Below, one piece after another: positions 7,789 through 19,181 of a stretch of DNA of 35,895 bases. The notes beneath the pieces were generated by a model that saw nothing but the letters and a program-made list of their open reading frames with translations, searched no databases and had not been told where the DNA came from. A program made the position numbers and the translations under genes. Each line of letters begins with the position of its first letter. The stretch's first letter is position 1. The stretch is from a virus. The stretch spans positions 1-35,895 of the IMG/VR virus record IMGVR_UViG_3300010370_000106. One strand, 5' to 3'.

Positions 7789-8043
7789 TTAGAATGTGCC
7801 GCCGTCAATACTAGTAACAGCCGCAGAGGCAATTTTGAATTCGTACCGATTATTTGCTGAACTAAAAACTAATGATTCGCCATCTTCAACACCTACAGTT
7901 GAGACATCATTGATTTCAGCAAGAGTAATATTTGGTTTAGGAGCAAAATCAGATGCAGCAAGTGTAGTTCTATTTGGTTGCTGTACTGTAATTGTTCCTA
8001 GTGTGTTGTTTCTGAGTGAAACAGAGCCTAATGTCAATGGCAT
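7789..8043 (-). CDS. Small virion-associated protein (84 aa)
   Basis: Unnamed 84-aa protein between the 111-aa protein and the giant fibre. It starts MPLTLGSVSLRNNTLGTITV and carries INDVSTVGVEDGESLVFSS, then NNRYEFK, ending SIDGGTF. The DVSxxGVxDGExLVF...YEF pattern is a short beta-rich segment common in phage fibre proteins, often just before a C-terminal DGGTF-type end. The ATG at 8043 is preceded by GAGG at good spacing. The stop of the 111-aa gene is 3 nt upstream and the fibre starts 11 nt downstream, so all three are probably one transcript. It is probably a minor virion component or fibre attachment element. No enzymatic motif is visible. Confidence 0.7.
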   Translation of the reverse strand: MPLTLGSVSLRNNTLGTITVQQPNRTTLAASDFAPKPNITLAEINDVSTVGVEDGESLVFSSANNRYEFKIASAAVTSIDGGTF

Positions 8044-8046
8044 TTA

Positions 8047-8382
8047 TTACCTCGTTACAGATGGTAATACAATTGCTGTACCTTCAATAACTCTAGTTTT
8101 TGAATTGTCTGTGCTATTTGTAATGACTAAATCGTAGACATATCTTCCTGGAGTAAGCAATGCAGTATTTGCCGCAGTCATTGTCAATGTTATTTCGCCA
8201 TTTGCATTACCCGTGATTGTTGCTGCAAGTGTATTTGCAGATGAAGAGTAATAAGATTTGCGGAGCTGAGATGCTGCTGAGTATGTGGTCAAATTCACTG
8301 CATCACCCTGTGCATCATTTACAGTCACGACTGATGTTAGATTAGCACCTTGCTCAAGTGTAAGTTCCAAATAAGCTGCCAA
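8047..8382 (-). CDS. Beta-sandwich-like small virion protein (111 aa, TTG start)
   Basis: Protein of 111 aa starting AAYLELTLEQGANLTSVVTV after the initiator, with SQLRKSYYSSSA in the middle and a C-terminal RYVYDLVITN...VIEGTAIVLPSVT. The 'elt.eqGa...R.G.Y.YDl.i......vieG...v.p.vT' pattern is a recurring short phage tail protein resembling an Ig-like or BppU-N-type beta domain; this assignment is by pattern only. The start is TTG at 8382-8380, supported by AGGAG eight nt upstream and the absence of a nearby in-frame ATG. A CTAAATA box at 8413-8407 and the terminator before it make this the first gene of a new transcription unit running into the giant fibre and probably the neck genes. Confidence 0.72.
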   Translation of the reverse strand: MAAYLELTLEQGANLTSVVTVNDAQGDAVNLTTYSAASQLRKSYYSSSANTLAATITGNANGEITLTMTAANTALLTPGRYVYDLVITNSTDNSKTRVIEGTAIVLPSVTR

Positions 8383-8406: not shown

Positions 8407-8413
8407 TATTTAG
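8407..8413 (-). promoter_or_regulatory. Candidate T4-late-type promoter (CTAAATA)
   Basis: The minus strand reads CTAAATACTAC, followed by AAATAAAAGGAG, 24 nt before the TTG start at 8382. It resembles the T4 late promoter TATAAATA and sits between an intrinsic terminator (8436-8460) and the next gene, exactly where a fresh promoter is needed. Confidence 0.6.
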
Positions 8414-8435
8414 TCAAATGTGGAATTGGTAGAAA

Positions 8436-8460
8436 CAAAAAACCCCGCCGAAGCGGGGTT
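8436..8460 (-). terminator. Intrinsic terminator with UUCG tetraloop
   Basis: The minus strand carries an 8-bp stem AACCCCGC / GCGGGGTT closed by a TTCG loop and followed by a run of six T (two belong to the stem) and then GTTT. A GC-rich stem, stable tetraloop and U-tract are the hallmarks of a Rho-independent terminator. It lies 26 nt downstream of the 241-aa adhesin stop and ends the adhesin region. The plus-strand side has no comparable T-tract, so it works on minus-strand transcripts. Confidence 0.92.
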
Positions 8461-8485
8461 GAATAAATTGAAAAACAATTATTGA

Positions 8486-9211
8486 TTAACGGAAAACTTG
8501 GAAATAAACAAATGCGGCATCTATACTGGCGGCTTCCGGATTTGGCCTAGTTGAAATGCGATATGAAGTTGTTGTGAGTGTTACTTCAGGAGTCAAAACT
8601 ACGCAACCGGCATTACCTATAGGCCTTGCTCCTGCATTTACAGAATAATTTATGTCCGGCATTGCTTGTGTAAAATTAATCGTATATTCGCCAGTACCGT
8701 TATCCGTAATACTAGACACATTGAACGCCGCACGAATTGCTACAGTGCCAGTACCGTTAAAGTTAACCCATGCTTTACACAATCCAGGTGCAACATCATC
8801 AGCCGTTACAAGCTTATTCGGCTCAACGAATGATAGTCTTGTATTCGTTGAGGTATTTGCAGCAGCCGTTGAAAGAATGATTGTGTTTGCGTTGACAACC
8901 GAAGAAACTGTCGTACCATATCCAAAACCTGCACCATACACAATCATACCTGCACTGATCGTTCCTGTATTAGATGTAAAGGTAACTGAAGTGTTTCCTA
9001 CAGCAGTATTTGCATTTGATGTCGTAACATTATAAAGATTGTTCTGTGTTGCAATCAAATTTGGCGACAGCATACCATAGGTTACAGTGTTTGCAGTCAG
9101 TTGCAGACCATTTGTGTTTGCCAATAAAATTATTTGACCAGTGTTACTTACTATTTGAAAAGTATTACCTGAATCAAGCTGAATTTTATCTACAACAAGA
9201 GTACCTGCCAT
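8486..9211 (-). CDS. Tail fibre / adhesin, paralogue A of the VNFxGT module (241 aa)
   Basis: Fibre-type virion protein of 241 aa. The N-terminus MAGTLVVDKIQLDSGNTFQI is an attachment-like segment seen in many short phage fibre proteins. The middle (about 55-135) carries NVTTSNANTAVGNTSVTFTS and SSVVNANTIILSTAAANTST. The C-terminal half carries KAWVNFNGTGTVAIRAAFNV, then SSITDNGTGEYTINFTQAMP, ending in a variable tip and FVYFQVFR. The same middle and end occur in the proteins at 14652-15896 and 15960-16592. The ATG at 9211 overlaps the stop of the chaperone-like gene upstream (TAATG), so translation is coupled. It is the last gene before the terminator. A role in binding the cell surface is inferred from context, with no known receptor. 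Confidence 0.8.
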   Translation of the reverse strand: MAGTLVVDKIQLDSGNTFQIVSNTGQIILLANTNGLQLTANTVTYGMLSPNLIATQNNLYNVTTSNANTAVGNTSVTFTSNTGTISAGMIVYGAGFGYGTTVSSVVNANTIILSTAAANTSTNTRLSFVEPNKLVTADDVAPGLCKAWVNFNGTGTVAIRAAFNVSSITDNGTGEYTINFTQAMPDINYSVNAGARPIGNAGCVVLTPEVTLTTTSYRISTRPNPEAASIDAAFVYFQVFR

Positions 9212-9660
9212 TATTCTTCCTCAGTTTCAAGTGTAGGCCATGTCAACGAATATACAACTTGCTGAAGTGCTTCAACATCATCTGCTTCATTGATAGCAGT
9301 TTCATTTGTTTCTGCTGAAGAAATAACTGCTGCACGATACGTTGCAATCGCTGTAGGAACATTGACTTGACGTTCAATCTTTCTGATAATCATCCAATCA
9401 GTAGGCGCTAACAATTTGTTTGAAGTATCTTTGACCTGTGCAACAAAAGATTCTTTGAGCGTTTCAAGTGGACGTGGATTATTCTTTTCGCCATTCCAGT
9501 AAAACCGATCATCTTCACGAACAGCATCACCGACTTCAGTAATTCCGATTGCAGCTTTTTCTGCTGCTGAAGAAAGTCTGAGCCAGTTGGCTGGATATTG
9601 AATACCGTTTACTGTAAATGCTACGTCTGTTGATAGAGGTTTGTCGTTCAGTAAAAACAT
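9211..9660 (-). CDS. Tail fibre assembly/chaperone-like protein (DUF4376-like, 149 aa)
   Basis: Protein of 149 aa with a two-part layout typical of phage fibre-assembly proteins. An N-terminal half has NGIQYPANWLRLSS, a GITEV segment and RFYWNGE. A mostly helical C-terminal half has LKESFVAQVKD, LLAPTDWMIIRKIE (about 83-96) and VEALQQVVYSLTWPT. The L-x-x-T-D-W-x-x-x-R-K motif and following helices match the DUF4376 / tail-fibre-assembly style as I recall it. Such proteins usually help a neighbouring fibre fold or attach. It lies 42 nt after the 776-aa adhesin and overlaps the 241-aa adhesin by TAATG, so either could be its client. It has a good Shine-Dalgarno (AGGAA) and a CTAAATA box upstream. 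Confidence 0.75.
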   Translation of the reverse strand: MFLLNDKPLSTDVAFTVNGIQYPANWLRLSSAAEKAAIGITEVGDAVREDDRFYWNGEKNNPRPLETLKESFVAQVKDTSNKLLAPTDWMIIRKIERQVNVPTAIATYRAAVISSAETNETAINEADDVEALQQVVYSLTWPTLETEEE

Positions 9661-9683
9661 TTTTTTGTTCCTATGTTGTTCTT

Positions 9684-9690
9684 TATTTAG
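9684..9690 (-). promoter_or_regulatory. Candidate late promoter (CTAAATA) for the 149/241-aa pair
   Basis: The minus strand reads CTAAATAAAG in the 42-nt gap after the 776-aa gene, 23 nt before the ATG at 9660, with AGGAAC between. It has the same box and spacing as at 8407-8413. Confidence 0.5.
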
Positions 9691-9702
9691 TCACGATATT
9701 GG

Positions 9703-12033
9703 TTATCTAGCAAGAGCGTTTTTGAATGGGGCTTCAGCAAAAGCCATATAGATATACGTCCAACCTGAATTATTTGCGTATTCTGAATTACGTCTTGGCT
9801 TGAATCCGTTTGATAAAATGTCAATACCATTTGTATCTGTAAACTCAGCAATGGAAGCACTTGGAAACAATTCTAAAACTGAAGCATTTGATGTATTTCT
9901 TGCTGTATCCCAAATTGTCCAGACTGTACTTGATGTGGAGTTGCTTGAAGCTTTTACCAGTACAAAACGAGGACGGAATCCTGTGTATATAAACGGTCCA
10001 TCAGTAGATCCGTTACCTGTGTAGCTGCCAAACTTGGAGAAGCCTGCGACTTCGGAGAATAAGTATGCTATTGAACTTTCAGATGCAGGTATTGCAGCAG
10101 AGCTTGAACCAAATGTCGTTGATGTCGGCGCTGGAACGGCTGTCCCTAAAGTACCGACAGCATTTGTATTGTTTAAGTTAAGATACGCTGTTGTCATGTT
10201 TGCCAGCGAAGTGTGAAATACTGTCCAGTTTGCAGTAGTCGGACCACGACCTTTCAAGATAATCATTGCCGGCGTTACGCCAAGGTTGTGATTGAACGAT
10301 GCGCTGCTTGCCGTGTTTGTAAACGTCACAATGTCAAAGCCCTGCGTTGCACCTTTTTGCCAAGTCCAACCAACATACGTGCCACCGCTGGCATTAACTG
10401 AGTTATCGCTGCCAACTGTAAATGTGTTTCCATCGAATGCTTGAATGATGGTTGTTCCAGTTGCTTCTGCATCAGTCGCATTGGATTTTAGATGTTTATT
10501 TCCACCGGTAACTGAATTAGCAAGACGGTTATCGTCAATGCCGTTGCGCTTTTTGACCCATGCAAAGTCAACTGTTCCAACATTTGCTGTGATTGCTCTG
10601 CTTGATGCGCCGTCACCACTCCACAATATCGTATCAAAATACCGATTGCCCTTCAGGATAGTCGGCTGTGGCAGATTCAGCGTGTTCAGTGCTTTAAAGC
10701 CTGTTGGTGGTGTATATGTGAATGGGCGCTGACCGAAGTTGGCGACATATGTTTGTGCATTACTGCTTGTGCCGTTGAAAAAAGCTGGGATAATTGGTTT
10801 TCCAAACAAGTTTGTACTAAACGCCACTCCTTGTGAAACGCCATTTTTATAGAACGACAATGATCCTGTATCAGCGTCATATGCGACACCAATAACATCG
10901 TTTGTTGTAAACGATGCTCCGTATGATGCGGCAGTATTATTGTAGTAAGTCTGTCCTGTACTATAATAAGCCCACCCGTTTGTCGTAGTATAGGTTCTGT
11001 TCGTTGCAGCCGCAGATTGATCTGAAACACCTATCATTGACGAAAACACAGATCCGTTGGTTGGTACAACTTCCCAGTACCACTTTCCCACAGTCATTAC
11101 AAAATTACCAAATGCTGAAGACGATGTTCCAGCAGGCACGGACAAGTTTAAATTTCCGCTAGTAAGTGTGCCATTATTATTATCAATAGGATTCAACGTT
11201 GCATAATTCCCTCGCCCATTACCTCCATCACCAAACTGTGTAGGTACATCCAACATTGAATCGTAAGTTGCACCAGCAGTTACGCTGATGTTGTTCGGTG
11301 TCCAGTCGTTCCCGTTGCCGCTATAGTCTTTACCAATCGCTGCTGCTGTTGCTGCGCTGTTGTCAGAGAAGTTTAGATAGAAGCCGTTCGTTCCGTAAGT
11401 GCCAGTATATTTTTTTGGTTGCCACACACCAGTAACAAGACTAGTTTCACCGAACGAAGATGGCGTTAATGCTTGACCGTCGATGAAGTTAATCTCGGTT
11501 AGGTAGCCATCATATTTTCCCGGATCAACAGTTTGATACGCATAATTCCCAATGTAATGAACATTGTTGCTATTGATTAATCTATAAGTTGTAGAAAACG
11601 ACGAGCTATTAATAACTTGTTGGTTATTTACCCAAACTATCATACTTGATGTAGGGGCATCAAACTTCATTACTACATGATACCAAGCAGATGGGTCACG
11701 AAATACTGCTGTTGAGGTCACATTAACTGTGTAATTTGATGCGTTACTATACTGGTAATACCACAATCTATCGCTTGAATCAAAAGCAAGCACGGATTGA
11801 GTATATGTGCTTCCAGTAATACATGAACTAAATAGAGTATTGAACGCCCCTAAAGTTCCGCGCTTTGTCCATGCGCTGAATGTCCATTGTGTTGTAGACC
11901 CCGAAGCACCTAAAGTTCTGTTTAGGTATCCAGTATTTGACCGCAGACGCACAGAGCGTTGAATTCTATAACCTAACCGATTACGATGTCCACCTGCTGC
12001 TGTTGCAGTAGCTAAATTAAATAATGAACTCAT
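9703..12033 (-). CDS. Multidomain receptor-binding adhesin with LamG-like and SPRY-like domains (776 aa)
   Basis: Large adhesin. Residues about 28-215 look like a concanavalin/LamG-like jelly roll: SVRLRSNTGYLNR, WTFSAWTKRG, AWYHVVMKFD, YIGNYAY and DGYLTEINFIDGQALTPSSF. Residues about 220-270 include NGFYLNFSDNS and DYSGNGNDWTPNNIS. Residues about 280-450 resemble a SPRY/B30.2-type domain: GKWYWEVV, SMIGVSD, GVAYDADTGSLSFYKNGVSQ. The rest (FDTILWSGDGAS, GFDIVTFTN, SFNHNLGVTPAMIILKGRG, SGWTYIYMAFAEAPFK) matches a C-terminal domain often attached to such proteins in environmental phages (DUF7483-like, from memory). The short N-terminus (SSLFNLATATAAGGH) gives little room for a virion anchor. 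The start overlaps the preceding stop (TAATG). Base composition is richer in GC than the wedge genes. Carbohydrate binding is inferred from the folds. Confidence 0.82.
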   Translation of the reverse strand: MSSLFNLATATAAGGHRNRLGYRIQRSVRLRSNTGYLNRTLGASGSTTQWTFSAWTKRGTLGAFNTLFSSCITGSTYTQSVLAFDSSDRLWYYQYSNASNYTVNVTSTAVFRDPSAWYHVVMKFDAPTSSMIVWVNNQQVINSSSFSTTYRLINSNNVHYIGNYAYQTVDPGKYDGYLTEINFIDGQALTPSSFGETSLVTGVWQPKKYTGTYGTNGFYLNFSDNSAATAAAIGKDYSGNGNDWTPNNISVTAGATYDSMLDVPTQFGDGGNGRGNYATLNPIDNNNGTLTSGNLNLSVPAGTSSSAFGNFVMTVGKWYWEVVPTNGSVFSSMIGVSDQSAAATNRTYTTTNGWAYYSTGQTYYNNTAASYGASFTTNDVIGVAYDADTGSLSFYKNGVSQGVAFSTNLFGKPIIPAFFNGTSSNAQTYVANFGQRPFTYTPPTGFKALNTLNLPQPTILKGNRYFDTILWSGDGASSRAITANVGTVDFAWVKKRNGIDDNRLANSVTGGNKHLKSNATDAEATGTTIIQAFDGNTFTVGSDNSVNASGGTYVGWTWQKGATQGFDIVTFTNTASSASFNHNLGVTPAMIILKGRGPTTANWTVFHTSLANMTTAYLNLNNTNAVGTLGTAVPAPTSTTFGSSSAAIPASESSIAYLFSEVAGFSKFGSYTGNGSTDGPFIYTGFRPRFVLVKASSNSTSSTVWTIWDTARNTSNASVLELFPSASIAEFTDTNGIDILSNGFKPRRNSEYANNSGWTYIYMAFAEAPFKNALAR

Positions 12034-12425
12034 TAGACTAGACCAGTGATTGCGTCAACAATAATTGTTGTTGAGTTTGCGACATAATATGTGAGTAAAT
12101 CAATTGCATTGACTGCTGTTGATAATGTAGGTGCTGAGTTTGACTGAAACTTGTAGTACGAACCATATGAAATTGTATTTGATCCAAGTGTCTGACGAAC
12201 AAAGATACAACCTGATTGACCTGTTTTGATGTTAGTTGGATTTGCTAATGTAGCGTTGTTTGCAAGACCGACTTCAAAATTGTTCGCTGCATTCAAATCA
12301 AGTGTGATCGTACCGCCAGCATAAGTGATTCCAGGAACAGTCGTGCAGGGCGTTGATCTTGCGCCACCAGTCAGCGTCAATCCGTTGTCTGTCGTTATTG
12401 CGTCTATTTTAAGTGAACCTGCCAT
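12033..12425 (-). CDS. Short tail fibre protein with the N-F-E-V-x-L beta domain (130 aa)
   Basis: Fibre module of 130 aa. After an N-terminal attachment-like segment (MAGSLKIDAITTDNGLTLTG, similar to the 241-aa paralogue's MAGTLVVDKIQLDSGNTF) it contains GTITLDLNAANNFEVGLANN, NIKTGQSGCIFVRQ, YYKFQSNSAPTLSTAVNAID and LLTYYVAN. This 'LDL...NNFEV.L..N.TL...G..G...VRQ...PTLST..NA.D.L.YY' pattern is a widespread C-terminal domain of phage tail fibres. The ATG has a good AGGA upstream. It overlaps the 776-aa adhesin by one base, so the two are translationally coupled and may form one appendage, with this as the small linking piece. Confidence 0.75.
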   Translation of the reverse strand: MAGSLKIDAITTDNGLTLTGGARSTPCTTVPGITYAGGTITLDLNAANNFEVGLANNATLANPTNIKTGQSGCIFVRQTLGSNTISYGSYYKFQSNSAPTLSTAVNAIDLLTYYVANSTTIIVDAITGLV

Positions 12426-12441
12426 TTTGTTTTCCTAAAAA

Positions 12442-12864
12442 TTAAATTATTACCCAAACAGCACCATTGGACACGGTTACTGTTCTGTTATTTGCAATTG
12501 TCAATGGTCCAGCGGAACTTGCATTGTATAGTGTGGGAATCGTAACGTTTTCTGAGATTGTGTTTGGATTGATCCGAATGATACCATATGTATCTGCTGA
12601 TAAGTACGGATTTGTCAGAACACGATTACCTAAGTAAACAACTTCAATGTTATTTGAACCCGCTGGCGGTGCTTCAGTAAACACAAGTTTACCTGCAATG
12701 AGTGCATATGAATCTGTTTTCTGTTTGACACCAGAAATTGAAACGATAACCGACGGTTCGTTTCCGTGTGGATACGCTAGATTATATTCAGTCGTAGAAC
12801 CATCACCTGAAAAGTATTCAGATTGGAACGATCCGTTAACGAGTTGATTTCCTAAATATGACAA
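12442..12864 (-). CDS. Short tail fibre protein, 'xYLGxxL' family (140 aa, TTG start)
   Basis: Fibre module of 140 aa. It opens SYLGNQLVNGSF, then YFSGDGSTTEYNLAYP and VIVSISGVKQ, with LVFTEAPPAGSNNIEVVYLG at about 62-81. The same beta-hairpin unit ('F.GdGstt.y.L......i.V.v.GV.Q....y.v.g..l.Ft.aPP.G..nI.V.y.G') occurs in the 414-aa protein at 14652-15896. The C-terminal part (ADTYGIIRINPNTI, TIANNRTVTVSNGAVWVII) resembles small fibre-tip segments; the 71-aa protein at 17903-18118 ends in similar GARWVIM. The start is TTG with AAGGA upstream, and the same sequence context recurs at 15896. An ATAAATA box precedes it. Confidence 0.75.
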   Translation of the reverse strand: MSYLGNQLVNGSFQSEYFSGDGSTTEYNLAYPHGNEPSVIVSISGVKQKTDSYALIAGKLVFTEAPPAGSNNIEVVYLGNRVLTNPYLSADTYGIIRINPNTISENVTIPTLYNASSAGPLTIANNRTVTVSNGAVWVII

Positions 12865-12883
12865 AGTATGTCCTTTTTTTCTT

Positions 12884-12890
12884 TATTTAT
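12884..12890 (-). promoter_or_regulatory. Candidate late promoter (ATAAATA) for 12864-9703
   Basis: The minus strand reads GAATAAATAAAG across the stop codon of the 57-aa gene, 19 nt before the TTG start at 12864, with AAGGA between. Same family of boxes as upstream of the other adhesin mini-operons. Confidence 0.45.
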
Positions 12891-13060
12891 TCTGGTGTTT
12901 CTGATTCATCAGCAGGTTCTGGTGTGTTACCCTCAGAGAGCCACGCGACAAACTCAGGATAGTCAGCGGTGCAAGTCAGGCGGCATTTTCCATCATCATC
13001 AATGCGGGCATATATTTGCTGCTCATTTTGAATAGTAAGTATTTTTTTAAAAATCATCAT
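12887..13060 (-). CDS. Small tail-fibre-associated protein (57 aa)
   Basis: Short gene of 57 aa. The translation begins MMIFKKILTIQNEQQIYARI, with CRLTCTADYPEFVAWLSEG in the middle and NTPEPADESETPE at the end. A 'YPxFxAWLxEGNTPEPAD' C-terminus is a familiar ending of small proteins encoded next to phage tail fibres, so a fibre-chaperone or accessory role is likely (pattern recognition only). The start ATG at 13060 overlaps the stop of the 364-aa adhesin as ATGATG; a second ATG at 13057 is an alternative start. The overlap indicates translational coupling to that adhesin, its likely partner. It ends in an acidic tail. Confidence 0.75.
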   Translation of the reverse strand: MMIFKKILTIQNEQQIYARIDDDGKCRLTCTADYPEFVAWLSEGNTPEPADESETPE

Positions 13061-14151
13061 AACTCCGCAGAGAAACCAAGATAGCCGTTTGCCGAATTTG
13101 TCCTAAGAGCAGTGGCATTACCTGCGCTCAATCCAGTGGATACAATGCAATCCACCATACCCATACTATTGGTTGTAGAACCAGCGAACACAGGAACAGA
13201 AGTCAACGTCAAAGTTGATGTGCCCGCGTTAAACAGGTGATAATCAGACGCAGTTCCTGATTGCTCTAGAGACGTTGGTCGCGTTCGCATAGTGACGGGA
13301 AACGGGACATAGACAATAGCACCTGATGGGGCGTACGCTTGTCCACCAAAAGCAAGCATTCTGCTATCAAAGGCTGGACTTAGCCGATAGTAATATCGCT
13401 GACACATCACTAACTCCGTACCATACGGACGATAGTCAAAAGCTGTAGCAACACTTCCTTTTTCTAGCTGAACACCTGTAACATAGAAAGTGGCTCCGTT
13501 GGTTCCGACTACGCTGGTGGCTCCTGTTGGGGCGCGAAGAGTTGATCCAGACCAAGCACCTGCCGTCCCTGAAACAGAAGCACCTGCTCCCATGTTGAAG
13601 TTCACTACGATGCCACCGCTGGTATCGGTCGACCATGTACCAGTCGTGTCGCCGGGAATGGTGATGGTTTTTGTCTCAAACGCATTGGCTGCGCTGATCG
13701 TATAAGTAAACGGATAAACGCGGTCAGTTGCACCGTTAGAAATTGTCCCGCCAAAAGTGCCTGTCAAAGAAGAACGCACCCGAAAAGACAATGTGACAGC
13801 TTGCGCGTTTGCGGTGCCCCATCCAAGATCAGCAATATTGAAACCCTCAATGACCTGCTGGACAAAAAAGAACTCCGACGCTCCGACGGTGTAAGCCGAC
13901 GAAGAAGTTACCAGTAATGAGTTGATGAATCCTGCGGGGGCAGTGGTGCTGCGTTGTACGGTGAATTTAGAAGCCGCGCTGCCATAGCAAGACCAACGAT
14001 CTACGGTGTAAACGACTGAAGTGGTTTGCGTCACACTCGCACCAGCATTGCGCTGATCAATCGCCATCGCACCGTTAATAATACGATTCTTGAAACCGAA
14101 CGGTGATCCAGATGAATTGTTGATACTGTCTATTGCTGTTTGAATAGCCAT
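13057..14151 (-). CDS. Tail fibre / carbohydrate-binding-like adhesin (364 aa)
   Basis: Adhesin of 364 aa opening MAIQTAIDSINNSSG, then FKNRIINGAMAIDQRNAGAS and YTVDRWSCYG (about 20-57). The 'F.NRIINGaM.IDQRNaGAs.t.....Y..DRW' motif is widespread in phage tail-fibre and receptor-binding proteins and heads a jelly-roll, carbohydrate-binding-like domain. FVQQVIEGFNIADLGWGTA and VTLSFRVRSSLTGTFGG continue the same pattern, and YVTGVQLEKGSVATAFDYRP (about 222-241) is its usual end. The remaining 125 residues form a separate beta-rich tip. A hand count of 13541-13640 gives 55 G+C of 100, against 26 of 100 in a gp6 sample, which suggests acquisition from elsewhere. It starts right after the stop of the 75-aa chaperone-like gene. 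Confidence 0.83.
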   Translation of the reverse strand: MAIQTAIDSINNSSGSPFGFKNRIINGAMAIDQRNAGASVTQTTSVVYTVDRWSCYGSAASKFTVQRSTTAPAGFINSLLVTSSSAYTVGASEFFFVQQVIEGFNIADLGWGTANAQAVTLSFRVRSSLTGTFGGTISNGATDRVYPFTYTISAANAFETKTITIPGDTTGTWSTDTSGGIVVNFNMGAGASVSGTAGAWSGSTLRAPTGATSVVGTNGATFYVTGVQLEKGSVATAFDYRPYGTELVMCQRYYYRLSPAFDSRMLAFGGQAYAPSGAIVYVPFPVTMRTRPTSLEQSGTASDYHLFNAGTSTLTLTSVPVFAGSTTNSMGMVDCIVSTGLSAGNATALRTNSANGYLGFSAEL

Positions 14152-14379
14152 TTATTCTACGCTTAGTTGTTTGAGTTCGTTTGTTGTTGTTGCAGTATCA
14201 GCTAATTGTGTAATATCACGAAGACGCTGTTTCTCTGCAACAATCTCTGTTGTGTCTGCATTTGTTTCTAATGCACGTTGAAATTGAACGTCCAATGCTT
14301 CAAGCAGTGGCGCTCTTTCTGCACGAAGTCTGTCTTTAGTGATATCTTTTGCTTTGCTTAGATTTACAGTAATAGCCAT
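14152..14379 (-). CDS. Small chaperone-like protein, helical 'LLExLDVxFQRA' family (75 aa)
   Basis: Protein of 75 aa: AITVNLSKAKDITKDRLRAE, then RAPLLEALDVQFQRALETNA and EKQRLRDITQLADTATTTNE, ending LKQLSVE. It is mostly helical and charged, with no membrane segment. The 'R..Rap.L..LDv.f.rA.e......i...Kq.LRDit' pattern is a recurrent small protein next to phage tail-fibre genes, usually taken as an assembly or chaperone protein. I chose the ATG at 14379 because it overlaps the previous stop (TAATG) and gives the family-like N-terminus; an upstream frame extension reads unlike the family. It precedes the 364-aa adhesin directly. Confidence 0.75.
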   Translation of the reverse strand: MAITVNLSKAKDITKDRLRAERAPLLEALDVQFQRALETNADTTEIVAEKQRLRDITQLADTATTTNELKQLSVE

Positions 14380-14603
14380 TATTGACCTCCAATACCATGA
14401 GCAGCACCCATTGATGAGTCTAGTTCCCATGCGTTTCTAAATGTACGATCTTCAGGAATATCAGATGCATCAACGATCCAATATTCTTTACCTGCTGGTA
14501 CATCTTTCTTTGCGATCTGCTCAATAGTCAGACCAGCAGATGGTGCAGGAACAATGATTGATACTCCACCATTTTCATTTTCAAAAATAATTCTTGAATT
14601 CAT
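14379..14603 (-). CDS. Small tail-assembly-associated protein, 'IPEDRTFRNAW' family (74 aa)
   Basis: Protein of 74 aa: MNSRIIFENENGGVSIIVPA, then LTIEQIAKKDVPAGKEYWIV and ASDIPEDRTFRNAWELD. The 'vP.g..Y.ivd.sdiP.DRtFRnAWe' signature is common in small phage proteins encoded before the 75-aa type family, and the two may work as a pair. Function is not established; assembly assistance to the neighbouring fibre is inferred from position. It has AAGGA upstream of the ATG and an ATAAATA box 31 nt upstream, making it the first gene of the unit 14603-12887. Confidence 0.72.
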   Translation of the reverse strand: MNSRIIFENENGGVSIIVPAPSAGLTIEQIAKKDVPAGKEYWIVDASDIPEDRTFRNAWELDSSMGAAHGIGGQ

Positions 14604-14634
14604 TTTTTAGGTTTCCTTTTGTGTTGATATAATC

Positions 14635-14641
14635 TATTTAT
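14635..14641 (-). promoter_or_regulatory. Candidate late promoter (ATAAATA) for 14603-12887
   Basis: The minus strand reads GAATAAATAGATTATATC in the 48-nt gap after the 414-aa gene, followed by AAAAGGAAACC before the ATG at 14603. Confidence 0.5.
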
Positions 14642-14651
14642 TCTGTGTCTT

Positions 14652-15896
14652 TTAGCGGAAAATAGCAACGCTAAGATCATTCAGATCGTTTCCAGCATTT
14701 GCCGAATTGTTAATTTGTATTGGAATATAAGAGACCGTTTTTCCCGATGCATCCGGGCATCTAGTGTTATGGGATGGTGTTCCGCACACAGAAGAATAAT
14801 TAGCATCTGGCATCGCAGTTGTAAAATTGACTGTATACGCTCCTACACCGGTATCCGTAATACTTGATACATTGAATGCTGCACGAATTCGTACTGTTCC
14901 TGTACCATCAAAATTCACCCACGCTTTTGCAACAACAGGTGATGCAACATGCGACACTAACAGTTTGTTGGGTGTATAGAATGTCAGTGATGTATTTGTT
15001 GATGAGTTTGCAGCAGCAGACGAAATTGTAATTGTATTTGCATTGACAACAGAAGTAACAACTGAACCTACGTTGATTGTTGCACCAGTGACAAACATAC
15101 CAACAGTAATCGGTGCTGTATTTGACCGATAAGTTACTGAAGTATTTCCTGATGCCAGTGTACAGTTAGCAATAACTGCTTGCATATCAGTGAATGATGC
15201 AACATCATTTGATGCAATATGCGTAAAGTTCAACAGATTCATCGTCACATTACCAGATACGGTAACATCACCAGTTACACTCATACCATTTGTAACAACT
15301 GGATTTGACAGTGTTGTGCCTGGTGGAATTGCAGTGACAGTTGTTGTTGTTCTGAATCCCAAATGACGAACAGAGATCAGTGAGTTTGCTGATACAGTGC
15401 TTGTGAAGATAACGTTTTTACCTGAAAGACTGTAGTGTTCTGGTGCTCGTTGAACGATACCATCAATCGTTACAAATACTGTGTTTGCATCAGCGGGCTG
15501 TTCAGTCAAAACATACGTTCTACCTGCGCCGTTTGCAGTAAAGTTATCTGTCGTAAATAACCGAATATTGTTTGCAAGTTTATTGTAAGTAACAGAACCA
15601 TCAGGTAATGTTATCTGTGCGCCTGTTTGATAATTGCGATAAACAACATAAACATTATTTGTACCTGTTGGCGGTGCTTCAGTAAATGTCAGTGATGCGC
15701 CCGAGACACTGTACGAAACAATAGGCTCTTGCTGGACATTTTCAACAAACACTTCAATATCTGTTGGAAATGACACTGCACGTGATAATGTAAATGCTGT
15801 CGTAGAAGCATTACCTGAAAACCGATCAGCATCAGAAACAGGCGCTGCTGATCTGAACGGATCAAACGGTAATGAATTTTGCCCAATGTATGCCAA
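14652..15896 (-). CDS. Tail fibre / adhesin, paralogue B of the VNFxGT module (414 aa, TTG start)
   Basis: Fibre protein of 414 aa. It opens AYIGQNSLPFDPFRSAAPVS, followed by two beta units: RFSGNASTTAFTLSRAVSFP with FTEAPPTGTNNVYVVYRNYQ, then RTYVLTEQPADANTVFVTID with VQRAPEHYSLSGKNVIFTS. TLPDGSVTYNKLANNI lies between them. A GNVTMNLLN stem leads to the shared C-terminal region (SVVNANTITISSAAANSSTN, KAWVNFDGTGTVRIRAAFNV, YTVNFTTAMPDANYSS) also found at 8486-9211 and 15960-16592. It ends DLSVAIFR. The N-terminal unit matches the 140-aa protein at 12442. The start is TTG with AAGGA upstream. A CATAAATAC box lies 25 nt before it. It appears to be a single-gene unit. Confidence 0.8.
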   Translation of the reverse strand: MAYIGQNSLPFDPFRSAAPVSDADRFSGNASTTAFTLSRAVSFPTDIEVFVENVQQEPIVSYSVSGASLTFTEAPPTGTNNVYVVYRNYQTGAQITLPDGSVTYNKLANNIRLFTTDNFTANGAGRTYVLTEQPADANTVFVTIDGIVQRAPEHYSLSGKNVIFTSTVSANSLISVRHLGFRTTTTVTAIPPGTTLSNPVVTNGMSVTGDVTVSGNVTMNLLNFTHIASNDVASFTDMQAVIANCTLASGNTSVTYRSNTAPITVGMFVTGATINVGSVVTSVVNANTITISSAAANSSTNTSLTFYTPNKLLVSHVASPVVAKAWVNFDGTGTVRIRAAFNVSSITDTGVGAYTVNFTTAMPDANYSSVCGTPSHNTRCPDASGKTVSYIPIQINNSANAGNDLNDLSVAIFR

Positions 15897-15921
15897 AATA
15901 TGTCCTTTTTATTTTACTTTG

Positions 15922-15928
15922 TATTTAT
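15922..15928 (-). promoter_or_regulatory. Candidate late promoter (CATAAATA) for the 414-aa adhesin
   Basis: The minus strand reads ACATAAATACAAAG in the 63-nt gap between the 210-aa and 414-aa genes, 25 nt before the TTG start, with AAAAAGGACATA between. The core and downstream AC are close to the T4 late consensus. Confidence 0.55.
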
Positions 15929-15959
15929 GTAGCTTGCAGAAGTTCATGTGTTGTCACTG

Positions 15960-16592
15960 TTAGCGGAAAACTGAAACAAACACAGACGCCGCATCTGATT
16001 GTGTAGAGGAATCACCACCACTCGTTCTAACAGTAACCGACGTAGTTGTATATCCTTCCATCACCCTTATTTTTGAAGAAATAGATGCTGTTGATGCGGA
16101 CGCATTTACACAATAGTTTACATCAGGCAATGCTTGCGTAAAGTTCACTGTGTAAATACCAGTACCATCATCTTGAATACTTGATACGTTGAATGCTGCC
16201 CGAATAAGTGTTGCAGTAGTTGTTGCAGTGCCGTTGAAGTTCACCCATGCTTTACACAATCCTGGTGCTGCAACATCCGCAGTCATCACACGATTTGGTT
16301 CAACAAAAGATATTCTTGTGTTTGTTGCAGTGTTTGCTGCTGCTGATGAAAGCAAAATTGTATTTGCATTGACTACAGAAGATACTGTAACACCTCTACC
16401 AAATCCTGCTGCATAGATAATCATTCCTGCATTGATTCTAGCAGTATTTGATGTGAATGTTACATATGAATTACCCGTAGAAGTATTTGCATTTGCAGTA
16501 ACAACATTATACACATTGTTTTGCGTTGCAACTCCAGCAATAATTGAACCATCACCAAATGTTATGTTATCGCCACTATATACAATTGCCAT
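15960..16592 (-). CDS. Tail fibre / adhesin, paralogue C of the VNFxGT module (210 aa)
   Basis: Short fibre protein of 210 aa. The N-terminus MAIVYSGDNITFGDGSIIAG is a minimal attachment-like segment. The rest is almost wholly the module shared with 8486-9211: NVYNVVTANANTSTGNSYVT, SSVVNANTILLSSAAANTAT, GLCKAWVNFNGTATTTATLI, YTVNFTQALPDVNYCVNAS, ending in FVSVFR. Compared with the other two copies it has a 4-residue insertion (TTAT) after VNFNGTA and a different tip (about 165-200). The start follows a good AAAGG and lies 2 nt after the stop of the chaperone-like gene. It is last in the unit that starts at 18446. Confidence 0.8.
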   Translation of the reverse strand: MAIVYSGDNITFGDGSIIAGVATQNNVYNVVTANANTSTGNSYVTFTSNTARINAGMIIYAAGFGRGVTVSSVVNANTILLSSAAANTATNTRISFVEPNRVMTADVAAPGLCKAWVNFNGTATTTATLIRAAFNVSSIQDDGTGIYTVNFTQALPDVNYCVNASASTASISSKIRVMEGYTTTSVTVRTSGGDSSTQSDAASVFVSVFR

Positions 16593-16594
16593 TC

Positions 16595-16885
16595 TTAGCC
16601 CTTTGGATATTTGTCTTTGACTGCTTGAATCTGAGCAGCCATTTCAGCAGGAAAAACACCCGCACGAAATAATGCATCTAATTGATCACCAATAGATGGA
16701 TATTCCATGACTCGTTTTTCTTGATAAGATAAAGAGTTGAAAATCTCTTGTTCTTTTTGCTGTCTAATTTCTGTTGCTTGTTCTTCAGTAATAAGAACAA
16801 GTCTTGAATCAATCCATGCATCTTGTGAACCGTCAGATTCATATGCATAAATTTCATTTGTGTTTGGGTCTTTGTAATATTTCAT
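16595..16885 (-). CDS. Tail-fibre chaperone-like protein, 'YPSIGDQLDALF' family (96 aa)
   Basis: Protein of 96 aa beginning MKYYKDPNTNEIYAYESDGS, then SQDAWIDSRLVLITEEQATE, a charged helical middle, and MEYPSIGDQLDALFRAGVFP. The 'YyKd...e.YAYesDGSQDa.I' start and 'YPSIgDQLDALf' end mark a common small phage protein found among tail-fibre genes, probably an assembly factor. I start at 16885 rather than an ATG nine codons upstream, because the family N-terminus is there and the upstream codons overlap the previous gene. No strong Shine-Dalgarno is visible (GAGAAAA). Likely client: the 129-aa or 210-aa fibre on either side. Confidence 0.73.
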   Translation of the reverse strand: MKYYKDPNTNEIYAYESDGSQDAWIDSRLVLITEEQATEIRQQKEQEIFNSLSYQEKRVMEYPSIGDQLDALFRAGVFPAEMAAQIQAVKDKYPKG

Positions 16886-16893
16886 AATTTTTC

Positions 16894-17283
16894 TCAACGA
16901 AGCTCGTACCAATACGCTATGGAAAAGTTGGCAGTATTTGTTACCGAATATGACACATTGTTAGGAATGATATAAAAAAACGGTGAACCGCCACCGCCAC
17001 CACTAGGAGTAAACTGGACAGTGCCAACTACCGATCCTGCAATGTTGAACACACCAGTCATATTTCCTGATGCAGTAGGACTTACAACAACCATAATAGG
17101 TCTACCTGTTGTATTTGTGTATGTAGTTCCAGTAGCACGACTTGATGTTACATTTGTCCAAGTCTGATCAGCACCGATAGGAACAACAGATGAATTCAGA
17201 TTTGTTGATGTTACTACACCGCTGGGCAATCCACCACTTGATAATCCTGCTATTGTTCCGTCACCACTAAGAGTAAGTGCCAT
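16894..17283 (-). CDS. Short tail fibre protein (129 aa)
   Basis: Fibre module of 129 aa opening MALTLSGDGTIAGLSSGGLP, a typical anchoring start of small phage fibre proteins, followed by a beta-rich tip: DQTWTNVTSSRATGTTYTNT, GRPIMVVVS, then a Gly stretch GGGGGSPFF and a C-terminal FSIAYWYELR. The 'W.nvt.sR..GttYtN.tgrpI.v.v' motif with a YxxxR-type end is a recurrent fibre-tip fold in phages. AAGGAG lies seven nt upstream of the ATG. It comes 13 nt after the 201-aa gene. Receptor binding is inferred from type only. Confidence 0.75.
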   Translation of the reverse strand: MALTLSGDGTIAGLSSGGLPSGVVTSTNLNSSVVPIGADQTWTNVTSSRATGTTYTNTTGRPIMVVVSPTASGNMTGVFNIAGSVVGTVQFTPSGGGGGSPFFYIIPNNVSYSVTNTANFSIAYWYELR

Positions 17284-17296
17284 TTAGTTATTCTCC

Positions 17297-17902
17297 TTAT
17301 TCCCACATGATGTTTATAGTGCCAGCATCAAAAGTGTCTGTGCCGTTAATAGTTACGCGAATCATACCTAAAGATGAAGCCAGTGCTTTAGCGCCAACAA
17401 TCGTAGTCTCAGTATTAGTGTTACCTATAATAACGATCATTCCATCAACAACCCAAGTATTTGTCGTTGCGTCCAGTAAATCAAAAACAACTTTTCCAGT
17501 AAGCGGATATGCGGCTGACCACGTTGTAGCGTAAAGTTTAATATCACTTGAATATGCAGCACTGTATGCGTGATAGCTAACACCAGCACCACCATGCGTA
17601 ACAGAATAACCAGTATATCCAGAAGTTTCTGGACTAGTTCCTGGACCAATTTGCAATACAGGCGCGTTCGTACTATTGGTTGATACGTTATTAAACATCA
17701 CTGTAACACGTTTTGCCCACGACGGAATCCCTGGAAAATCAACGTATGTTCCTGATGCAGTTACCGCTACACCACTAACTAATTGACTTTGACCTAATGT
17801 ACGAAATGTTACGCCGTTTTCTTGTAAATCTAAAGTAGGAGAAGAATCTGCTGTAAGTGTTGCAGTAATAATACCTGATGTTGTTGTATTTAATTTTGGC
17901 AT
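17297..17902 (-). CDS. Tail fibre protein with 'DFPGIPSWAKRVTV' beta domain (201 aa)
   Basis: Fibre module of 201 aa. The N-terminus PKLNTTTSGIITATLTADSS is followed by TYVDFPGIPSWAKRVTVMFN (about 52-71), NAPVLQIGPGTSPETSGYTG and a C-terminus DTFDAGTINIMWE. The 'sGT.vDF.gIPsw.KRi.v.f..vStng....lQiG...g.e.sGY...' through 'R.t.ngtDtFDaGtiNI.we' pattern is widespread in phage fibre and structural proteins. Its ATG overlaps the end of the 71-aa gene closely (ATGTAAATG), with no Shine-Dalgarno, so coupling is likely. Confidence 0.77.
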   Translation of the reverse strand: MPKLNTTTSGIITATLTADSSPTLDLQENGVTFRTLGQSQLVSGVAVTASGTYVDFPGIPSWAKRVTVMFNNVSTNSTNAPVLQIGPGTSPETSGYTGYSVTHGGAGVSYHAYSAAYSSDIKLYATTWSAAYPLTGKVVFDLLDATTNTWVVDGMIVIIGNTNTETTIVGAKALASSLGMIRVTINGTDTFDAGTINIMWE

Positions 17903-18118
17903 TTACATTATCACCCATCTTGCGCCACTTCCAAGTGAAACGAACCGACCATCAATTATCGTTATCGGACCAACAGAGTATCCGTTTTCGTTTGTTTGGA
18001 ATGTGTAGCTGTTATAAATTGTGTTTGAAGTTGCAATAATTGCGCTACCCAATTGAATAGCTGTGTTGGTACTTGCAGCAGTACCGATCAAGCCACCCTG
18101 AACTCTAGTAATTGCCAT
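17903..18118 (-). CDS. Small fibre-associated protein (71 aa)
   Basis: Protein of 71 aa: MAITRVQGGLIGTAASTNTA, then SNTIYNSYTFQTNENGYSVG, and PITIIDGRFVSLGSGARWVI before a final M. The 'YtF.tn.NgySvGPitI.dG..VslgsGArWvI' ending is typical of small C-terminal fibre segments; the 140-aa protein ends in a similar way. I start at the ATG at 18118, one base after the previous stop, rather than the upstream one at 18145, whose extra residues (LLCWRYHN) look like read-through of the neighbour. Function is unknown beyond virion association. Confidence 0.7.
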   Translation of the reverse strand: MAITRVQGGLIGTAASTNTAIQLGSAIIATSNTIYNSYTFQTNENGYSVGPITIIDGRFVSLGSGARWVIM

Positions 18119-18119
18119 A

Positions 18120-18446
18120 TTATGATATCTCCAACAGAGAAGCAATAATATCTATTGTGTTATTCGTTGATGAGTTTGCTCTCAATTGGTCTGCTGCTTC
18201 CAAGACAAGTTTCTGTTCACCACCAATTGGTACCAATGTTGAGCCAGAAAGAATTGGAACATTTGCAATGAGAACGTAATCAACGCCTGACCGACGAAGA
18301 TGAATATTTGCGGTCACTGTTCCGGTTGATTTGTTGGCAATCGTCATACCAATCAGTGTGGTTTGTGTTGCAGAAGGACAGGTGTAAATCGTGTTCCCTG
18401 TCGTTTCAATGTTGACGTTTGCTCTTGATCTAAAATTGTTAGCCAT
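18120..18446 (-). CDS. Small virion structural protein (108 aa)
   Basis: Protein of 108 aa: MANNFRSRANVNIETTGNTI, YTCPSATQTTLIGMTIANKS, VTANIHLRRSGVDYVLIANV, PILSGSTLVPIGGEQKLVLE, then a helix-like AADQLRANSSTNNTIDIIAS. The 'i..t..tiYt.psatqttliGmtiaN......v.v.l.....dy.i.nvpi..GstLv..gg.qKlvLe..D.lra.s' pattern is a well-known small structural protein of tailed phages, probably a beta-sandwich. It is the first gene of a six-gene unit, with a perfect TATAAATA late box 20 nt upstream and AAGGA before the ATG. Confidence 0.78.
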   Translation of the reverse strand: MANNFRSRANVNIETTGNTIYTCPSATQTTLIGMTIANKSTGTVTANIHLRRSGVDYVLIANVPILSGSTLVPIGGEQKLVLEAADQLRANSSTNNTIDIIASLLEIS

Positions 18447-18466
18447 TTATAATGTCCTTGATTCTT

Positions 18467-18474
18467 TATTTATA
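18467..18474 (-). promoter_or_regulatory. T4-type late promoter (exact TATAAATA)
   Basis: The minus strand reads GATATAAATAAAG, containing TATAAATA, an exact match to the T4 late promoter core, in the 33-nt gap between the 233-aa and 108-aa genes. A second ATAAATA overlaps the upstream stop codon (18483-18477). It is the best promoter match in the window. Confidence 0.68.
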
Positions 18475-18479
18475 TCTAT

Positions 18480-19181
18480 TTATCCTAAAGCAATTGAAAA
18501 TGCTACAGTCTGATCTATCGCTGCATTAGCGGCAGTAAATGCTGCGTTTGCTTGAATGAAGCCAGAGTTGGCGTGAATAAATGCGCCATTTGCTACTGTA
18601 AATGCTGAATTTGCATATTGCCCCGTGGCATTCTGACTTTGATATGCGCTATTTGCGTGAACAAATGCAGCGTTTGCATATGATCCTGCACTGAGTGCTA
18701 CAGAATATGCAGAAGTAATATTCGCATAAATTGCGGTGTTTGATGAACCTACTAAGTAAACAACATTTGCTGTGTTGAGATTACCGTAGTTGATTGTTGC
18801 ATTTGACAGTGTTGTGTTGCCAACGATGTTTGCTGATCCACTGACTAGAAGATCATCAAATCCAATCTCATCTAAAGATACGTTACCGCTAATTGTAACA
18901 TTACCATAAACAAACAAATCACCGCCAATGTAACCGTTGCTGGTCACATTTATTGTTGCAACGTTACCAGTCAGATTGAATGAGTTTGCTTGCAGCGTAT
19001 TGATGTTTGCAAGATTACGAACATTCAGTGATGAACCATCTCCCTCAATAAAGATTGAAGAATTTGCTAAAAATCCACCGCTGGTATTGTTTGTGAGATT
19101 GTTTGCAACGGCAATTAGTTCAGAAGTGGCTGATAACCATTCTTGAAATGTATTAGCGGTAGTAAGTTGATTAATTGCCAT
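18480..19181 (-). CDS. Short heptad-repeat fibre protein (233 aa)
   Basis: Fibre-like protein of 233 aa. The start MAINQLTTANTFQEWLSATS and then ELIAVANNLTNNTSGGF is a known N-terminus of structural proteins in aquatic T4-like phages. A beta stem follows (GGDLFVYGNVTISGN, SGSANIVGNTTLSNATINYG). From about residue 160 it carries A-N-x-x-F heptads including HANSAYQSQNATGQYANSAF, which also occur in the 2057-aa fibre. It closes with AANAAIDQTVAFSIALG, nearly the same ending as the giant fibre (AANSAIDSAVALAIALG). It overlaps the upstream small gene by 11 nt. It looks like a miniature version of the giant fibre and may share a docking partner. Confidence 0.78.
   Translation of the reverse strand: MAINQLTTANTFQEWLSATSELIAVANNLTNNTSGGFLANSSIFIEGDGSSLNVRNLANINTLQANSFNLTGNVATINVTSNGYIGGDLFVYGNVTISGNVSLDEIGFDDLLVSGSANIVGNTTLSNATINYGNLNTANVVYLVGSSNTAIYANITSAYSVALSAGSYANAAFVHANSAYQSQNATGQYANSAFTVANGAFIHANSGFIQANAAFTAANAAIDQTVAFSIALG

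Follow-up and report, generated by a model that had tools for sequence, protein, structure and literature searches.

In pelagimyophages and cyanomyophages, a hypervariable region rich in fibre genes and placed before the neck gene has been described as the host recognition cluster (HRC; Zaragoza-Solas et al. 2020, PMC7029224). According to that study, the HRC typically measures about 34-45 kb and includes glycosyltransferases, and at this place other T4-like phages carry the fibre module alone. The metaviromic islands of Mizuno et al. (2014, PMC3909814) combine variable fibre C-termini and recognition genes with constant N-termini. At the level of single fibres, the Pam3 chaperone gp25 holds the distal fibre with its variable first 55 residues and trimerises through a C-terminal helical domain (PMC9608196), and the fibre chaperones of Alteromonas phages V22 and A5 carry the domain DUF4376 (PMC10579305). 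Here we analyse a 35.9-kb viral fragment (IMG/VR record IMGVR_UViG_3300010370_000106, positions 1 to 35,895), called the window below, which carries an array of 16 genes spanning 8.5-18.4 kb. We consider it likely that, in this host-recognition cluster of a T4-like aquatic myovirus, tips held in fixed slots, one of them together with a small partner gene (g57), are replaced singly by recombination between related phages.

Every accepted gene of the window lies on the minus strand, as do all features given below, and the array genes run in the same direction. In the order of transcription, gp5-, gp25- and gp6-like genes, g886, g593, gp8, g2009 (2009 aa, phrog_358), g79 and g233 precede the array; the array itself reads g108, g80, g201, g129, g105, g210, g414, g74, g77, g364, g57, g140, g130, g776, g149, g241; and a terminator, g111, g84, g2057, gp13 and gp14 follow it. 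All the open reading frames (ORFs) named in a preliminary description of this DNA, which had proposed exchangeable host-recognition cartridges interleaved with small chaperone-like genes, were recovered on this strand with the same ends and lengths, including those of 71, 96 and 75 aa (g80, g105 and g77) once their starts had been checked. The array lies between baseplate and neck genes as that description had it, with the correction that the giant fibre g2057, a mosaic gene too, likewise stands before the neck genes. Eight array proteins (g129, g210, g414, g364, g140, g130, g776 and g241) match tail-fibre PHROGs or Pfam families of fibre type, in agreement with the proposed minimum of eight fibre modules. 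The fibre match of g80 is weak, and PHROG and Pfam profile searches gave no clear fibre match for g201 and g108.

The locus adds a new member to the HRC type of region. Homologues of gp5, gp6 and gp8 lie on one side and those of gp13 and gp14 on the other, tail-fibre genes are present, and the region is hypervariable among relatives with conserved flanks. It thus shares with the HRC (in the available part of PMC7029224) a fibre-rich, hypervariable place in the T4-like structural region before gp14. It differs in being shorter (some 18 kb when measured from g79 through g2057; size is typical of the HRC, not defining) and in having little besides fibre and assembly-type genes; no glycosyltransferase was found in Pfam scans of 20 array and flank proteins. 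Neither slot replacement within a near-identical frame nor a unit like g364+g57 was found described in that part of PMC7029224. A similar layout is seen in the cultured methylophage Melnitz, with gp8-, g2009-, g79-, g108-, g414-, g364-, g57-, g149-, g111-, gp13- and gp14-like genes, among them one g364-like/g57-like pair. A DNA search of annotated phages gave no near match to the window, and Rfam and tRNA scans of the window found nothing. psbA was absent from the seven records searched for it, therefore giving no sign of a typical cyanophage.

The closest relative, G001 (IMGVR_UViG_3300032287_001415), has the identical gene set and order, and the DNA identity between the two alternates sharply along the locus. 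Identity is 0.91-1.00 in g79, g233, g108, g80, g105, g210, g74, g77, g140, g130, g149, g111 and g84, and mostly 0.35-0.7 in five replaced slots and in parts of g2057. Slot A (16894-17902) comprises the distal parts of g201 (17297-17902) and g129 (16894-17283), with DNA identities of 0.57 and 0.65, synonymous divergences (dS) of 1.18 and 0.88 and a trough from 17850 to 16880. Slot B is the last ~60 aa of g414 (14652-15896), at about 14652-14840: the N-terminal part of this fibre is 0.97-1.00 identical in DNA and the last 200 nt 0.39-0.54. The g414 body also differs in part, with synonymous sites near saturation in the last block only. Slot C is the fibre g364 (13057-14151; DNA 0.54, dS 2.79) with its partner g57 (12887-13060), slot D is g776 (9703-12033; DNA 0.61, dS 1.33), and slot E is much of g241 (8486-9211; DNA 0.71, dS 1.01). 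Overall, dS is 0.88-2.79 in g201, g129, g364, g57, g776 and g241 and 0-0.22 in the connectors, and the constant genes are under purifying selection (nonsynonymous divergence, dN, 0-0.07). The giant repeat fibre g2057 (2057 aa; 1604-7777) shows the same contrast internally: its N-terminal half is mostly 97-100% identical in DNA, and the proportion of synonymous differences (pS), 0-0.2 in the N-terminal part, rises to mostly 0.4-0.8 in three replaced blocks (about 4900-3880, 3680-3100 and 2430-1700). With a mostly constant N-terminal half and three replaced blocks, g2057 therefore behaves as a further variable fibre, beyond the span of the preliminary description.

Saturated synonymous sites beside nearly unchanged ones indicate replacement by recombination. 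Strong selection would be expected on tips that contact a receptor, and fast adaptive point mutation was considered as the source of their divergence. It is rejected as extremely improbable: pS in the tips is 0.52-0.73, near saturation and too high for this process, against 0.02-0.2 in neighbouring genes, and the borders are abrupt. The compared loci come from IMG/VR contigs, with one junction at a contig end, and misassembly of metagenome reads over a hypervariable stretch could in principle have produced the variation. We regard this as very unlikely, in view of replaced blocks that are intact ORFs with uninterrupted flanks on contigs of 26-46 kb, and of a similar frame and g364/g57 pair in cultured phage genomes. 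In T4-type phages, exchange of the gp37/gp38 adhesins changes fibre tips through recombination at conserved motifs (reportedly the work of Tetart et al. 1996, cited in PMC9004378). The change of tips is alike in the two cases; the proteins are unrelated, and the window array has several slots at once.

In more distant relatives, in which g108 is 63-70% identical, the frame from g2009, g79, g233 and g108 to gp13 is kept where covered, and g111 and g84 are kept in most; the array inside it varies in genes, in their number and in fusions. In L031, for instance, the start of the g414 protein is fused to the C-terminal part of g364; L010 and L031 both have a split g776, and the number of g364+g57 units ranges from 0 to 4 per genome. 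In L057 and L059, where g2009 is at 32%, one to three genes lie between the long fibre and g111; therefore the array can be nearly empty. Close relatives thus differ by tips exchanged within a fixed gene order, and distant ones by gain, loss and fusion of modules. The cartridge idea of the preliminary description stands in a narrower form: tip alleles are replaced in fixed slots, but G001, by keeping set and order, shows none of the whole-module gain and loss that the idea had called for, and such changes appear only in the distant relatives. Nor are all modules exchangeable, g108, g80, g210, g140 and g130 being near-constant connectors. Compared with the metaviromic islands, which PMC3909814 inferred by read recruitment, whole contigs here give the boundaries and a co-moving small gene.

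Slot C allows the exchange border to be placed on a structure. An AlphaFold2 model of g364 (predicted local distance difference test score 82.4) shows a body folded as a beta-sandwich, a helix at residues 243-253 and a separate tip domain (254-364). The body (residues 45-231) resembles carbohydrate-binding modules in most of its fold matches (CBM4-2, 4bj0, E-value 1.2e-5, TM score 0.70 by target); the protein matches phrog_4492 (1.4e-50), and a PDB sequence search with it found no match. The most conserved motif of g364, TGVQLEKGS...YGTELVMCQRYYY (13393-13479), has invariant columns and coincides with the border of body and tip, where the exchange junction lies. Breakpoints fall at about +24 to +31 aa relative to the motif in most informative pairs that have it. 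The estimated change point is at about residue 254 (window numbering), just past the YGTELxLCQRY helix, in 10 of 17, and near the motif in three of three, pairs in which the motif is recognisable. Between g57 and gp14, a further close genome, G023, matches G001 at 99-100% identity, and it carries a different g364 body up to the border motif, with its junction there.

The second part of slot C, g57, is the only small gene that changes with a tip; g105, g74, g77 and g149 are constant beside changed tips. Of the small assembly-type genes of the preliminary description, family matches bear out g105 and g149 and, weakly, g77; a partnership with a changing tip is seen for g57 only. g57-like genes were gathered from all loci, including by a motif scan that does not require g364, and g364-like fibres were called with a profile built before that scan. 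Among the matches listed, as in the two comparisons that follow, 203 of 204 unique upstream ORFs of g57 homologues are g364-like. Where the tip is the same and the body different (n = 6), g57 identity is 0.69-0.94, a level of at least 0.69 being reached by 4.2% of 12,845 background pairs. Where bodies are at least 0.9 identical, g57 identity is 0.34-0.71 with unrelated tips (n = 7) and 0.67-1.00 with shared tips (n = 10); the pairs in these tip/body classes are not fully independent. DNA profiles of metagenomic pairs agree with this, four sharing tip and g57 with body and downstream DNA diverged, and four others sharing body and downstream DNA with the tip unrelated and g57 diverged. As far as sequence comparison goes, g57 tracks the tip and not the body. 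The order of a g364-like fibre followed by a g57-like gene is also seen among cultured or complete myo-, podo- and sipho-type phages.

g57 is 57 aa long and ends just past a GNTPEPAD motif; its domain also forms the N-terminus of longer proteins carrying DUF4376 or Phage_tail_APC. Like Tfa-type chaperones, it lies directly downstream of its fibre gene. It has only the size and the place of the first part of such a chaperone and shares its domain with DUF4376 and Phage_tail_APC proteins, and on these grounds it is probably a minimal tip-specific chaperone or cap. Because the C-terminal trimerising domain of Tfa-type chaperones is not present in g57, we describe it as possibly working like one and do not file it as a member of that family. 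In Pam3 gp24-gp25 (PMC9608196, PDB 7YPX) and Mu Tfa (5YVQ), a variable N-terminal fibre-binding domain of ~55 residues matches g57 in size and logic; Pam3 gp25 has in addition the helical trimerising domain that g57 lacks. Alteromonas A5 gp8/gp9 and V22 gp26/gp27 likewise pair a fibre with a cognate downstream chaperone across distant phages (PMC10579305, PMC7289586), but these chaperones measure 195-239 aa and contain DUF4376, whereas g57 is without it, goes with a fibre family of its own and is present in 0-4 copies per genome. Among the longer relatives, g57-domain proteins of ~118-130 aa in L268, L269, L276, L309 and L331 are near identical and most of the fibres preceding them differ, so that some partners are shared across tips. 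A g57-like match is present in 25 Pseudomonas putida KT2440 podovirus records; in vB_PpuP-Kaagvere (L389, 954-3372) it lies inside a 123-aa protein directly 3' of the tail-fibre gene, which makes this phage a laboratory model of such a partner protein.

Several observations weigh against the reading of slots exchanged together with a cognate chaperone. The slot pattern is drawn mainly from a single close relative: G023 hardly differs from G001, so that the comparison has in effect two independent close genomes, that of the window and that represented by G001 and G023. Some breakpoints lie elsewhere in the fibre, and the G023 junction is a contig end at which an assembly chimera is possible. 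Concerning g57, linkage alone could explain its co-transfer, the gene being only ~165 bp and directly downstream of the tip, and its conserved 3' motif of 20 aa (0.78; whole protein, 0.52) may be a mere crossover site. Tips are unrelated in about 17 of the 35 pairs with g57 identity of at least 0.80, and many of these pairs belong to the ~118-aa chaperone-like group. S-N03 (L380) has six g364-like fibres, and a g57-like gene was not detected for any of them. Mantel and partial Mantel tests on 73 pairs gave no significant relation of g57 distance to tip distance, probably because distances are saturated; they were superseded by the class comparison of tip and body pairs given above. A PDB search with a g57 profile returned chance matches only and did not reach Pam3 gp25 or Mu Tfa. 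Of the structures proposed for checking, that of g364 showed its separate tip; the g57 model is of low confidence, and the fold search with it gave nothing.

The conserved 3' motif, the missing structural match and an adjacency that by itself predicts co-transfer would all suit a g57 that is no chaperone, being instead either a small component of the virion or a passive anchor for recombination, kept beside the tip through linkage only. We judge this less likely, though with an appreciable chance of being right, given that g57 pairs almost exclusively with one fibre family across myo-, podo- and siphoviruses, that its domain heads DUF4376 or Phage_tail_APC proteins, and that its sequence tracks the tip and not the body. 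A minimal chaperone or cap is thus the reading that we retain for g57.

Late-type boxes (TAAATA) were found at most 70 nt upstream of nine of 30 genes; random placement predicts 1.07, and none of 5000 draws reached nine. In the array they precede g108 (18483 and 18473), g414 (15928), g74 (14641), g140 (12890) and g149 (9690), that is, five for 16 genes, a fair match to the earlier wording that most groups have their own box. Another (8413) precedes g111, past the terminator. The late boxes are conserved, and the terminator that had been said to close the array (8460-8441, an 8-bp stem and a T run) is conserved in G001. Neither the overall number of terminator-like sites nor the yield of a simple sigma-70 promoter scan exceeded chance.

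As to whether the fibres share one virion or ALTERNATIVES, joint production and display of all of them is favoured because the genes share one direction, late boxes are conserved, genes are intact, dN is low in the constant genes, and neither reverse transcriptase nor serine recombinase was detected. Many adhesins for a single tail might instead be alternative cartridges, of which one or few are expressed or mounted at a time and the rest form a silent or switchable archive. Known phages do switch fibres, by inversion or retroelements. In this locus, the uniform direction, the conserved boxes and the intact ORFs make such an archive unlikely. A reverse transcriptase gene (PF00078), by which a diversity-generating retroelement would be recognised, was absent from 11 records, most of them fragments and including genomes of 162 and 169 kb, in searches with positive controls. 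The serine invertase (PF00239) and the oppositely oriented alternative ends of an invertible fibre cassette are likewise missing: the array is on one strand, and serine recombinases were not found in 11 records, mostly fragments and including those of 162 and 169 kb (tyrosine recombinases not searched). Joint display is therefore the arrangement that we prefer.

The remaining genes frame or connect the slots, and their identities below refer to G001. Upstream of the array lies the repeat fibre-like frame gene g233 (18480-19181; 97% aa), of which the compared relatives have full or N-terminal homologues. The constant first array gene g108 (18120-18446; 100% aa, 99% DNA) is present in relatives, and a PDB sequence search with it found nothing credible. 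The connector g80 (17903-18118; 92-93%) has a weak C-terminal match to phrog_5342, and its C-terminus resembles, at 45% over 40 aa, that of the constant connector g140 (12442-12864; 97% aa). A 140-aa homologue of g140 occurs at 66-71% in G008, G012, G014, G016, G017, G018 and L037. Assembly-like matches are found for the constant genes g105 (16595-16885; 97% aa; phrog_188 and phrog_9114) and g149 (9211-9660; 94% aa; phrog_4912, 1.1e-4) and, weakly, for the Phage_tail_APC-like g77 (14152-14379; 91%; PF16778, 0.039; phrog_4912, 0.0038). g74 (14379-14603; 99% aa) is a constant small gene; in L037, a phrog_11355-type ORF is followed by g74- and g77-like genes. g130 (12033-12425; 98% aa; phrog_4757, phrog_7760) is a constant small fibre. 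Past the terminator, g111 (8047-8382) and g84 (7789-8043) form a constant block (7789-8382; 99-100%), in which g111 matches phrog_3304, "L-shaped tail fiber protein assembly" (1.3e-22).

Three fibres carry paralogous tips of one kind. The nearly constant g210 (15960-16592; 94% aa to G001) and the slot E fibre g241 both match phrog_11355 (2.7e-19 and 5.5e-22), g210 being 62% identical to g241 and 51% to g414. The common domain of the three measures ~400 nt (60-76% identity; 8749-9048, 14900-15199 and 16226-16525). The slot D adhesin g776 combines SPRY (PF00622, 3.5e-19) and DUF7483 (PF24299, 9.9e-86), and a PDB sequence search matched its SPRY part only. This adhesin crosses phage types, with homologues in Pelagibacter podoviruses, cyanophages, and Roseobacter and Methylophilales phages.

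We propose that the array consists of late-transcribed genes for fibres of trimeric type, set between baseplate and neck genes. The connectors g108, g80, g105, g210, g74, g77, g140, g130 and g149 probably form attachment points or help to assemble them. The five slots (g201/g129, the end of g414, g364+g57, g776 and g241) and the g2057 blocks would hold the receptor-binding parts, and would be changed one at a time via recombination with related phages. In slot C, exchange would take place at the conserved border between the carbohydrate-binding-module-like body and the distal tip; g57 would travel with the tip and probably act as its minimal specific chaperone or cap. Direct observation covers the gene content, the late boxes, the mosaic replacement, the positions of breakpoints and the constant pairing of g364 with g57; receptor binding, the chaperone role of g57 and the joint production and carriage of all fibres on one particle are inferred from sequence and models. 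More tentatively, and at slightly below an even chance, we suggest that the slots are independent, that the minimal tip-recognising chaperone of the g364 slot travels with its tip as a two-part cartridge across myo-, podo- and siphoviruses, and that the constant assembly genes serve all slots.

Hypervariable fibre clusters make the host range of environmental phages hard to predict. If the proposed scheme holds, tips could be recognised in metagenomes by the border motif and the short gene downstream of it, and a phage genome would show how many candidate receptor-binding parts there are and of which kind. g57 itself would be a small candidate, open to testing, for the minimum required of a fibre chaperone.

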